DNA of 64,000 bases, taken from NCBI GenBank assembly GCA_036898135.1, contig CM072522.1, positions 35,266,166 to 35,330,165 of the forward strand, in the 5' to 3' direction. Position numbers and translations under genes: made by a program. The notes beneath the pieces are model-generated. The model was not told the DNA's origin. It was given only the letters and a program-made list of their open reading frames with translations, and searched no databases. Of the stretch, positions 18,942 through 52,461 are shown piece after piece. The first letter of the stretch is position 1, and each line of letters starts with the position of its first letter. This DNA is from Oncomelania hupensis (Eukaryota; Mollusca; Gastropoda; Littorinimorpha; Pomatiopsidae).

Positions 18942-19022
18942 TGCATTTGCCGTCGGTTGTGCATTGGGTATTTTCAGGACAAAAGGTAGGATCCGCGATG
19001 CAGTTGTCGCCCACTCCCAGGG
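18942..19022 (-). CDS. Cys-rich repeat protein exon (most 3' identified)
   Basis: 81-nt exon between acceptor TGTGCAG| and donor |GTCAGT, phase 1-1. It encodes LGVGDNC then C-x6-C-x5-C-x5-C (C-IADPTF-C-PENTQ-C-TTDGK-C). The fourth Cys codon is followed by one base and the donor, as in the six other exons of the set. The module resembles EB or Dickkopf-N-type small disulfide-rich domains of secreted or extracellular receptor proteins, but with four cysteines. I cannot assign a named family. The next exon in transcript order is not visible downstream (towards 1). Confidence 0.72.
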
Positions 19023-19029
19023 CTGCACA

Positions 19030-19345
19030 TTGTCATGTCAAATCAAAGTTAGATCAAAGTCAAAACAAAGTCACAATAAAGCCAGACAAAAGTCAAAGTC
19101 ACAATAAAGCCAGATAAAAGTCAAAGTCACAATTACACCCGACAAAAAGTCAAAACAAAGTCAAAATAGAGTCAGACAAAAGTCAAAGTCACAATAAAAC
19201 CCGACATAAGTCAAAGTCACAATAAAACCATACACATATCTCAATAAAACCAGACAAAAAGTCAAACTCACAACAAAGAAAGACAAAAGTCAAAACTAAG
19301 TCAAAATAAAGTCTGACAAAAGTCAAAGTCACAACAAAGTCAGAC
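19030..19345. repeat. minisatellite C, left block ('gtcaaagtcacaataaa')
   Basis: Degenerate tandem units of about 22-28 bp. The array resumes at 23761, so repeat B inserted into it. Confidence 0.85.
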
Positions 19346-19670
19346 TACCCCCGTGGGGGTGCCGGGGGTTTCAGAATAAATAGTATCCCCACTTTCTAAA
19401 ATTTAGTGCTTTAAATTCCCACTGTCGCTGTCTTTCTCCTTTGTTCGTTCTCATTCCTACTCTGTTCTATCAATCTACTATACTATCTTCTTCTTCGCTA
19501 GACCAGTCGCCTATCTTTCTTTTTTTTTGAAAACTCTTCCGGAACAAAACTCCTCATTTGTGAGTGAGGTCTGTTGGGTCAGCTTGGAAATATTGGACGC
19601 TTTCTGGCAGGTGGTCACTGGGGCTTCCTATGATGTTATTATTTGGCAATGTAGGCATTTTATATGTACA
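19346..19670 (+). repeat. dispersed repeat B, first half
   Basis: Starts 'tacccccgtgggggtgccgg' and continues to the Helitron-like insertion point at 19670. The intact copy at 25810-26345 (opposite strand) and a fragment at 30797-30885 define the family. The flank AAAGTCAGAC occurs at 19336-19345 and again at 23761-23770. This could be a 10-bp target duplication, although that string is also part of the host minisatellite. Class unknown. Confidence 0.75.
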
Positions 19671-19681
19671 CTAGTGGTTCT

Positions 19682-19703
19682 GTACCCTGGCAAGCCAGGG
19701 TAC
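19682..19703 (-). other. Helitron 3'-terminal hairpin, copy 1
   Basis: Perfect palindrome GTACCCTGGC-TT-GCCAGGGTAC (minus strand), eight nucleotides before the terminal CTAG. Confidence 0.8.
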
Positions 19704-20184
19704 ACAGGTTGCTGTTTAACATGTAGACAGAGAGACAACTGTTGTCTGCGAGTTTCATTTGGACGATAATACCTCCCCATATTCCCATTGATACCTCACC
19801 ATACCCTCCTCCCCATATCTCCCCGTCCCCCCCATGATGCCTCACTATACCCCCTTGATACATCCCCGAACCCACTTGATACCTCCCCATACCCCCTTGA
19901 TACCTTCCGTACCCCCCTTGTAACCTACCTGTACACTCCTTGATACTTCCCCGTTGATCGTTTCGCAGGTATGGATGAAAGGAATCGACCATGTTTGTTG
20001 TTGTTTGTTTGTTAAGTAGATTTGTGTCCCAAGATACCGTGGCGTATATGGGACAACAGGAATCGACCATCACCATACCCCCATATATATTCCCGTATCC
20101 CCGTTATACCTACCCTTGCCCCTTTAAACCTACCCGTAGCCTCCTTTTACCTACACGTACCACCCCATCCCGATCCTTGGTAAT

Positions 20185-20247
20185 GATAATAATAATAATA
20201 ATAATAATAATAATAATAATAATAATAATAATAATAATAATAATAAT
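20185..20247. repeat. (AAT)n microsatellite
   Basis: About 21 AAT units inside the Helitron-like element. Confidence 0.95.
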
Positions 20248-50640: not shown

Positions 50641-51410
50641 GGAGAGCTGAAGTGCGGAGTTGAAGACGTTTAGTCAAGACGACAGAGAGCTGGTCAGCTC
50701 AATGCTACAGGGTCGGCGCCAAGATACTATCGGGACCTGCTGCCTTTGTGCTGTTCTGCTTGTCGGGCTCTTCCGCTCAATGACGATGAAGGGCGGAGGT
50801 ACTTGTAGGAAAATACGTATGCCCAGAGGCAGAATGAACTCACATAAAGCTTTTAGGTTCGCCCCAATTATTCACGCCATTCCAAACTAGGACTATCCAG
50901 CCTTAGACGACCACAACTTACCAGCCTGCATGACGTTTTTAACAGCCTGCTTGACGTTTTTAACCAATCCTTTCAAATAACAAGGAACAAGTATAAACCT
51001 CAAGCTGTGCCAAAAGGACTAGCAAGGAGTTAAACAGTTCAACTCTGAAGGACGTCCACCACAATGTAAGATGATAAATAATGCCGCCCTGTTCATGTTT
51101 GGCTTATTGAGTTTTCTGCCCCAGCAGACACTTCAAACCTCTTCCTGTTCTCTATGCACACCTTCGTAGCCCACTATGAGGGACTCTTGGCTATGAAAAT
51201 TGTTCTGTCTAAGGCCTCCCGCCGCCTTCCTGTAACCACCATCCTCCGACCTGCTCAACTCATCCTCAAGTCTTTCCACTTCAACCACCAGCACTACCTT
51301 CAGACCATTGGCGTGGTCGATGGGCACTCGTATGGGCACTGGCTACGCTTGCCTTTTCCTGAGTTTCTGGGAAGTTCAGATATTTCAGTCATACCAGGGT
51401 TTCACTATGA
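50641..51410. other. unassigned sequence
   Basis: No recognised gene. A 48-nt minus-strand segment at 50922-50969 has acceptor and donor consensus and phase 1-1 (see findings). A 115-codon plus frame at 51154-51501 runs into the foldback element and shows no recognised domain. Confidence 0.4.
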
Positions 51411-52128
51411 CGGCCTACTAGCGCCAAAGCCGAGAGTTACCAGTATCACGAGGGTATTACAATTAACACGCGTTCTGTGTAATTTACAGAGATACTGCTA
51501 ATCCACAGTGTTAATTATTAATTATCAGTATTTGCCCCGCCTTCCAAACGCCAAAACCTGATAATTATAAATATTATGAGATCAGTACAAATATCATAGG
51601 AAAAATACAATTATCAAGGGGCAATTACAATCATCATTGAAATATTACAAATATCTTCTCGTGACCATGTTTAATTTTCAAGCTTGGCTCTAGCAATCCG
51701 TCTGGAAATGGGCCCAAACTGAAATTTGTAATTTTCACTTAATAATTACAATTTGTTTACATGTTAATTGTAAATATGTCGTTGGTATTTGTAATGATCA
51801 CATAGTATTTGTATGTATCAGGTTTTGGCACTAGTAGTCCGTCGTATACATGAATTACGCAGAACACGTTTGAATTACTATTATCACTGATGCCTGTAAA
51901 TTCACGTTTTGGCGCAGAATAAGCCGCCGTAAAACATGTAAGTATGAAGTGAAACTTGTAATTATTATGTAATAATTACAATTGTCGGTTTGGCCGCATT
52001 TTTAGCCGGATCGCTAGAGCCAAAACCCAAAATTAAACATGATCCGCGAAGATATTTGTAATTTTTCAATGGTAATTGTAATTATCTCACGATATTTGTA
52101 CTTATCAGGTTTTGGCGCTTGTAGGCCC
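51411..52128. mobile_element. foldback element with nested inverted repeats
   Basis: The left end 'gcctactagcgccaaa' is inverted at the right end ('tttggcgcttgtaggc'). A second nested pair is 'cgccaaaacctgataa' (51549) with 'ttatcaggttttggcg' (to 52117). A third is 'catgtttaattttcaagctt' (51667) with its complement near 52038. AT-rich with many 'tacaaatatc' repeats and no ORF. Confidence 0.7.
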
Positions 52129-52129
52129 T

Positions 52130-52200
52130 CAAGCTCCACTCCCGATATGTACAAACGGTTCATGGACGACTGCTTTGACAGTGCCACCTGCACCAAACCT
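52130..52200 (+). pseudogene. possible Penelope-like RT fragment
   Basis: The plus frame reads PDMYKRFMDDCFDSATCTKPE. This resembles the catalytic YxDD block of Penelope-like and related RTs (...LYKRYIDDCF...). Only about 23 codons are preserved, between the foldback element and the GACA array, so the call is tentative. Confidence 0.35.
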
Positions 52201-52380
52201 GAGAGACAGAGAGAGAGAGATAGAGACAGAGACAGACAGACAGAGACAGACAGACAGAGACAGAAAAAATGTCAGAGATACTGAGAGACATAAAGAGACA
52301 CAGTCAGAGAAAGAGGCAGAGTGAGACAGAGAGACAGACACAGAGAGAAACAGAGAGACAGACACAGAGAGACAGAGACT
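52199..52380. repeat. (GAGACA)n-type microsatellite
   Basis: Degenerate GA/GACA repeats ending 4 bp from the donor of the exon at 52384-52461. Confidence 0.9.
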
Positions 52381-52383
52381 CAC

Positions 52384-52461
52384 TACAACGTTGGTTGGCG
52401 TCACAGACAAGATTGGCGAGGCATTTCTCGTTGCCGGCACAGGGCTGGTCCAACGTTAGTT
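52384..52461 (-). CDS. Cys-rich repeat protein exon (most 5' identified)
   Basis: 78-nt exon, acceptor CTTGCAG| and donor |GTGAGT, phase 1-1. It encodes LTLDQPC then C-x5-C-x5-C-x5-C (C-AGNEK-C-LANLV-C-DANQR-C), the most compact module. It is the most upstream exon I can recognise. The signal peptide and first exons must lie beyond the LINE and Gypsy array to the right, or outside the window. Chained with the six others it gives 197 sense codons and no stop. Confidence 0.75.

Follow-up and report, generated by a model that had tools for sequence, protein, structure and literature searches.

The ten short segments found on the minus strand of a 64,000-nucleotide stretch of the Oncomelania hupensis genome (the window; C12:35266166-35330165 in the genome numbering used here) are very probably exons, joined constitutively, of a gene that is very large and exists in multiple copies; each exon encodes one short EB-like four-cysteine module. 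By analogy with two colinear intronless paralogues, the product would be a type I membrane protein, and phase-1 splicing would join its modules like beads on a string, with a constant linker of seven residues. The segments are real exons. Their gene is unusual and falls within a general kind already known, that of class 1-1 module exons, related to EB. Two features of this gene are uncommon: it has colinear intronless siblings, and arrays have grown from its splice junctions.

The initial annotation had described a hidden minus-strand gene with one four-cysteine module per phase 1-1 exon, and the exact anatomy bore this out. All seven segments that it listed matched letter for letter in coordinates and in their AG and GT edges, carried two codon bases in front and one behind, followed the pattern C-x5/6-C-x5-C-x5-10-C and formed a stop-free chain of 591 nt. 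All seven are real, but the count was short: three further exons (47477-47557, 28319-28405 and 3033-3116) bring the window total to ten and the full chain to 843 nt. In 5' to 3' order on the minus strand, the exons and their modules are 52384..52461 (LTLDQPC..NQRC), 48010..48096 (IVLNGDC..GKKC), 47477..47557 (WELRGQC..YKLC), 34856..34948 (KAGNQPC..DRKC), 32155..32235 (LFLGVSC..DNLC), 31384..31467 (LAVGEDC..FKRC), 28319..28405 (QPYGGSC..LRKC, with a first spacing of 7), 25116..25202 (VPPQGNC..KYVC), 18942..19022 (LGVGDNC..DGKC) and 3033..3116 (LKLNADC..QRRC). Exon lengths ranged from 78 to 93 nt. Both edges were in phase 1 and exactly four cysteines were present in 10/10 cases, and all nine consecutive junction codons were sense codons. 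Donors read GTRAGT in eight exons and GTCAGT or GTACGT in the other two, while the acceptors of exons 31384 and 47477 had a GAT array in place of the expected pyrimidine tract.

A strict regular expression for this exon anatomy recovered the seven segments together with 47477-47557 and 3033-3116 on the minus strand and nothing on the plus strand; it had no match in any of 200 simulated sequences (100 order-2 and 100 order-4 Markov sequences). A looser expression added 28319-28405, against a background of about 1.35 matches per simulated strand (40 sequences each). When a profile of the ten modules was run on all six frames, the ten exons came out on top (E 7.6e-11 to 3.4e-7) and the next match had E 0.17; as the profile was made from the same ten exons, it tests only for further members.

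The order and edges of the exons were compared with two uninterrupted, intron-free frames in the same genome (1.45 Gb, 428 contigs), designated C2a and C2b. C2a, at C2:39.06 M, runs for 1,874 codons without interruption; it opens with a signal-like stretch, MKLWTILFVFSAFVPRGSS (judged by eye), and goes on through a long N-terminal region and about 46 modules to a hydrophobic span (by eye) and a short tail. C2b is 72% identical to it, the first part of C2b lying outside the comparison, and the two differ by dN 0.167 and dS 0.392. The ten window exons mapped in order and without gaps onto ten consecutive modules of both frames, the first exon pairing with the C2a module whose first cysteine is residue 1078. 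The fit to C2a scored 229.5, compared with 80.6 at the next offset and a mean of 87.7 (sd 24.3) for shuffled orders; the fit to C2b scored 255.9, with 75.4 at the next offset, and none of 5,000 shuffles reached the observed value in either case. Linkers of seven residues were found at 9/9 junctions in the spliced chain, C2a and C2b alike, and cysteine spacings in the window chain equalled those of C2a at 34 of 39 places. The best single anchor was exon 28319 (score 88 to C2a and 94 to C2b, rank 1 in both), and the weakest single pairing with C2a was that of exon 47477 (rank 20 of 46; rank 3 of 47 with C2b). Two forms of the order test were tried. Best-hit order without contiguity, computed for 19 exons, was non-significant (Kendall tau 0.13 and 0.16) because the modules are too alike; the contiguity test used in its place carries the signal. 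Colinearity with C2a and C2b fixes splice edges and order about as well as sequence alone can.

The symmetric phase had been called ideal for exon skipping, a view that found no support. Four of the 45 ordered exon-pair junctions give a stop codon (47477 to 32155, to 31384 and to 3033; 25116 to 3033), and constitutive joining is favoured by the intronless paralogues, where the modules keep a 1:1 order.

As had been anticipated, more exons lie outside the window: there are 24 four-cysteine exons in all on the minus strand over 143 kb, from C12:35251230 to 35393936. No N-terminal exon of the gene was found up to C12:35,400,165. The scan covered 40 kb on either side of the window and a further 30 kb upstream, with the regular expression applied to the minus strand and the module profile to both strands. 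No plus-strand match to the profile was obtained at E 0.01 in 144 kb, nor in the further 30 kb. The 22 rows returned by the expression were reduced to 19 by leaving out 35356089 (donor GTATAT) and two shorter alternative readings, while exon 35387162, with the weak donor GTGTGT, was kept in the 24-exon alignment. Dynamic programming paired all 24 exons with C2b modules at a score of 498 (shuffle mean 274, sd 25, highest of 300 shuffles 374) and 23 of the 24 with C2a modules at 478 (mean 287, sd 27, highest 390). In C2b, the exons paired in order with 21 consecutive modules and then with three more past a three-module gap. At C12:35180137-35180304, an open stretch with EB-like sequence is similar to the last EB module of C2a (36% over 50 residues); the two candidate EB exons of the window gene each scored 16.6 bits, under the EB cut-off of 24.3. 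Judging from these positions, the gene spans at least 143 kb, and probably about 214 kb, if C12:35180137-35180304 holds its last module.

A search of the genome with the seven-module chain gave at least 98 matches (150 of 190 candidates scored), comprising intron-rich copies, matched exon by exon, and long single frames. The intron-rich copies lie on C12 (three, the window copy included), C4, C13 and C15 and on the small contigs C389, C252, C411 and C412. Over the three exons compared, C389 did not differ from the window copy at synonymous sites, and it could be an alternative haplotype. All ten exons, in the same order and with the same donors, stand in copy A (C12:35.47 M) and copy B (C12:35.90 M); the acceptor AG is present at 10/10 exons in copy A and at 9/10 in copy B. 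In eight other copies, 40/40 exon stretches were intact (AG, GT, four cysteines, stop-free, phase 1 at both edges), a set that favours conserved exons, as the stretches were picked from protein matches; the search pattern itself required the phase.

Compared with seven older copies, the window copy gave dN/dS values of 0.47, 0.33, 0.33, 0.31, 0.27, 0.39 and 0.45, each based on three to six exons and excluding exons of unequal length (31384 in C15a and C15b). Binomial tests against neutrality gave p = 0.0007-0.042 in these comparisons, which are not independent of one another. These ratios point to purifying selection relative to the older copies; relative to the youngest copies, A and B, the ratio was about 1 or more, at 1.09 for copy A (4 synonymous and 16 non-synonymous changes) and 3.0 for copy B (1 and 11). 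Such values would be expected if the exons were real in the family and the window copy were a young duplicate already released from constraint, as would the state of exon 31384 in copy B (C12:35915611), where the flanking GAT array ran into the exon and the usual acceptor AG is gone, an in-frame AG remaining six bases further in (by eye). We consider release from constraint unlikely, however: all ten consecutive modules of the window copy are present, open and equipped with splice sites, and the ratios to A and B are imprecise because few substitutions separate the young copies.

The intronless copies would have arisen by retroposition; C2a and C2b combine the absence of introns with modules colinear with those of an intron-rich gene. 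The reverse history, in which the intronless genes are older, introns were inserted at each module boundary and the intronless copies are not retrocopies, appears improbable. Intronless relatives are indeed numerous, with 24 loci whose uninterrupted frames measure 1,221 to 3,183 codons (one frame length being unreliable), and neither the 400 bases that follow the C2a stop nor the 300 that follow the C2b stop show a poly-A tail; yet such a history demands an intron at the same place and in the same phase in 21 consecutive modules, and no shared insertion target is visible in the junction sequences. Intronless C2a relatives with frames of about 1,360-1,530 codons were observed at C14:52.5-55.1 M and on other contigs, ten of them clustered on C14.

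Symmetric phase would also suit exons that act as independent cassettes, every one spliced singly to a shared leader so as to yield many small four-cysteine peptides, and the nearest solved structures to the modules are knottin peptides. We regard this arrangement as very improbable, since the colinear intronless proteins hold the modules in one chain and the linkers are constant at seven residues. Chance occurrence of open stretches with AG and GT edges, for which the shortness of the segments might speak, can be dismissed given the result in simulated DNA and the recurrence of these exons, order included, in copies A and B.

With constitutive joining as the preferred reading, the product of the window gene is probably membrane-anchored, by analogy with C2a and C2b: it would begin with a signal-like segment and a long N-terminal region, continue with about 46 modules in a string, EB modules among them, and close with a single hydrophobic span and a short tail. 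Surface receptors and adhesion molecules are built in this way, as a bead string behind an N-terminal region with a single membrane span, and the many duplicated copies with constrained yet varying sequence would fit recognition of variable partners. C2a had no match in NCBIfam and its long N-terminal region none in Pfam; the best PDB match to its N-terminal 350 residues (E 0.02) was a Kazal inhibitor variant, over a cysteine-rich part.

Tandem repeats lie close to the exons. Arrays occurred within 20 bp of seven of the ten window exons (against a mean of 1.07 when placed at random outside elements, seven being reached in 0 of 5,000 placements) and within 100 bp of all ten; elements were masked by hand, and a cruder mask gave the same result. 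Of nine exons of the same gene that lie beyond the window, four had arrays within 20 bp (mean 0.46; 2 of 3,000 placements; no element mask). Three arrays are minisatellites whose unit contains the splice junction itself. The first (35013..35896, minus strand; unit about 42 nt, range 39-49) is made of units that repeat, with divergence, the 3' end of exon 47477 and its donor; this donor region has 21 off-target matches, all across the junction. One more unit of this array lies between two insertions (44022..44080, minus strand). The 42-nt array, a LINE-derived stretch (about 44073-47455) and an inserted LTR retroelement jointly make up nearly the whole 12.5 kb intron; the retroelement lies inside the array (35897..44021, minus strand; LTRs 35897-37322 and 42517-44021) and is flanked by a 5-base target duplication, GTGAT, identified by eye. 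The second array (2526..3044, minus strand) mixes units of about 20 nt with units of about 30 nt, which repeat the 3' end of exon 3033 and its donor, a region with 10 off-target matches, all across the junction. It continues past an insert at about 502-2525 (1..500, minus strand), following exon 3033 to the edge of the window. The third (32225..32426, minus strand) has units of 32 nt that take in the acceptor of exon 32155 and the exon's first 11 nt.

All three array units of the window copy recur in copies A and B. At least two unit lengths of the 32-nt array were found in 7/7 older copies examined, at dS up to 0.52. The 42-nt array next to exon 34856 was matched in one of seven older copies (C4b) and in C389, within a flank of little over 80 bases, so in the others the array could be younger, could have been lost, or could lie out of reach. 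A tentative explanation, which we consider possible rather than probable, is that exon edges seed tandem arrays: junction-spanning pieces (donors for the 42-nt and 20/30-nt arrays, the acceptor for the 32-nt array) would be amplified until introns are filled, giving spare splice sites that can outlast gene duplications; the process can remove a site too, copy B being an example. The junction arrays would offer a case of repeat growth reshaping splice sites.

Several other repeats were recorded in the window. Gypsy-type LTR elements at 8221-16063, 35897-44021 and 54004-64000 have repeats 97.5-99.7% identical, and in the last a second internal part follows in tandem. A LINE open frame of 885 codons lies at 20757-23414, and sequences related to it recur at 29-31 kb, 44-47 kb and 53 kb; its reverse transcriptase (residues 330-830) gave 1,188 protein matches, with Pycnogonum, Lamellibrachia, Amphiura, Petrolisthes and Ridgeia as hosts among the matches listed. 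An interstitial, telomere-like CTAACC repeat was observed at 34265-34329. A 90-nt tandem array at 49985-50603, open in one minus-strand frame over much of a 240-codon stretch, is probably non-coding.

According to Pfam searches, none of the ten window modules reached the cut-off of any family; matches to Toxin_12 (0.015), Granulin (0.024) and Nab2-zf4 (0.079), each by one of the ten modules, were treated as noise. The likeness to EB proposed in the initial annotation was upheld for the paralogue, as the Pfam EB family reached its cut-off in C2a (25.1 versus 24.3 bits, in four stretches), but for none of the ten window modules nor for the spliced chains. The parallel suggestion of Dickkopf_N found no Pfam match for the window modules up to E 10, with filters that drop most weak matches, and no Pfam EGF match was obtained for these modules, which have four cysteines where six are needed. 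In a protein database search limited to proteins of 0.55-1.75 times the query length, a range that would miss a much longer relative, the seven- and ten-module chains had 8 and 81 word-sharing candidates, none at E <= 10. Against PDB, the seven-module chain gave one match (E 1.1), the ten-module chain none and the module profile a best match of E 0.065; Rfam gave nothing at gathering scores. The predicted structure of one module (pLDDT 91.9) has strands at 20-22 and 27-29 that form a hairpin carrying Cys3 and Cys4, while the model of a second module (pLDDT 79.8) has no hairpin strands. Neither this bead family nor splice-junction-derived arrays appeared among the matches listed in the literature search; the term 'EB module' was absent from the matches listed for one query, and no title on tandem disulfide-directed beta-hairpin (DDH) modules stood among those listed for another.

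The combination of at least 24 micro-exons and colinear intronless siblings in one genome amounts to a natural before-and-after experiment on exon-module genes. This system allows one to test whether such module strings grow by exon duplication, whether retrocopies still work and which exon set is used.

Among known modules, EB (PF01683) shares its first half with the beads, and C2a modules of the form C-x5-C-x5-C-x4-C-x-C stand in the same chain as four-cysteine ones; in contrast, the window modules end at their fourth cysteine and lack both the C-x-C and any cysteines beyond it. The consensus of DDH peptides is C-x5-19-C-x2-[G/P]-x2-C-x6-19-C, and in seven of the ten window modules the [G/P] place is taken by G. 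Sea-star KASH2 (PMC11891777) and U1-LITX-Lw1a, both DDH peptides, likewise have four cysteines, and the Cys3/Cys4 hairpin appears in one of the two models; these are single-domain peptides, whereas the window modules would be strung in a large protein. The disulfides of DDH peptides are given as C1-C3 and C2-C4 in PMC11891777 and, unlike there, as C1-C4 and C2-C3 in the introduction of PMC4942781. The inhibitor cystine knot of spider gating modifiers differs in having six cysteines and three knotted disulfides, as against four cysteines here. If the modules fold as two-disulfide hairpins, that simple fold would stand inside a large animal surface protein, which would bear on the relation of that fold to the cystine knot. 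EGF and LDL-receptor repeats are class 1-1 exon modules, with one module per symmetric phase-1 exon. The gene described here shares that arrangement and differs in its smaller four-cysteine module and in the colinear intronless paralogues present in the same genome.
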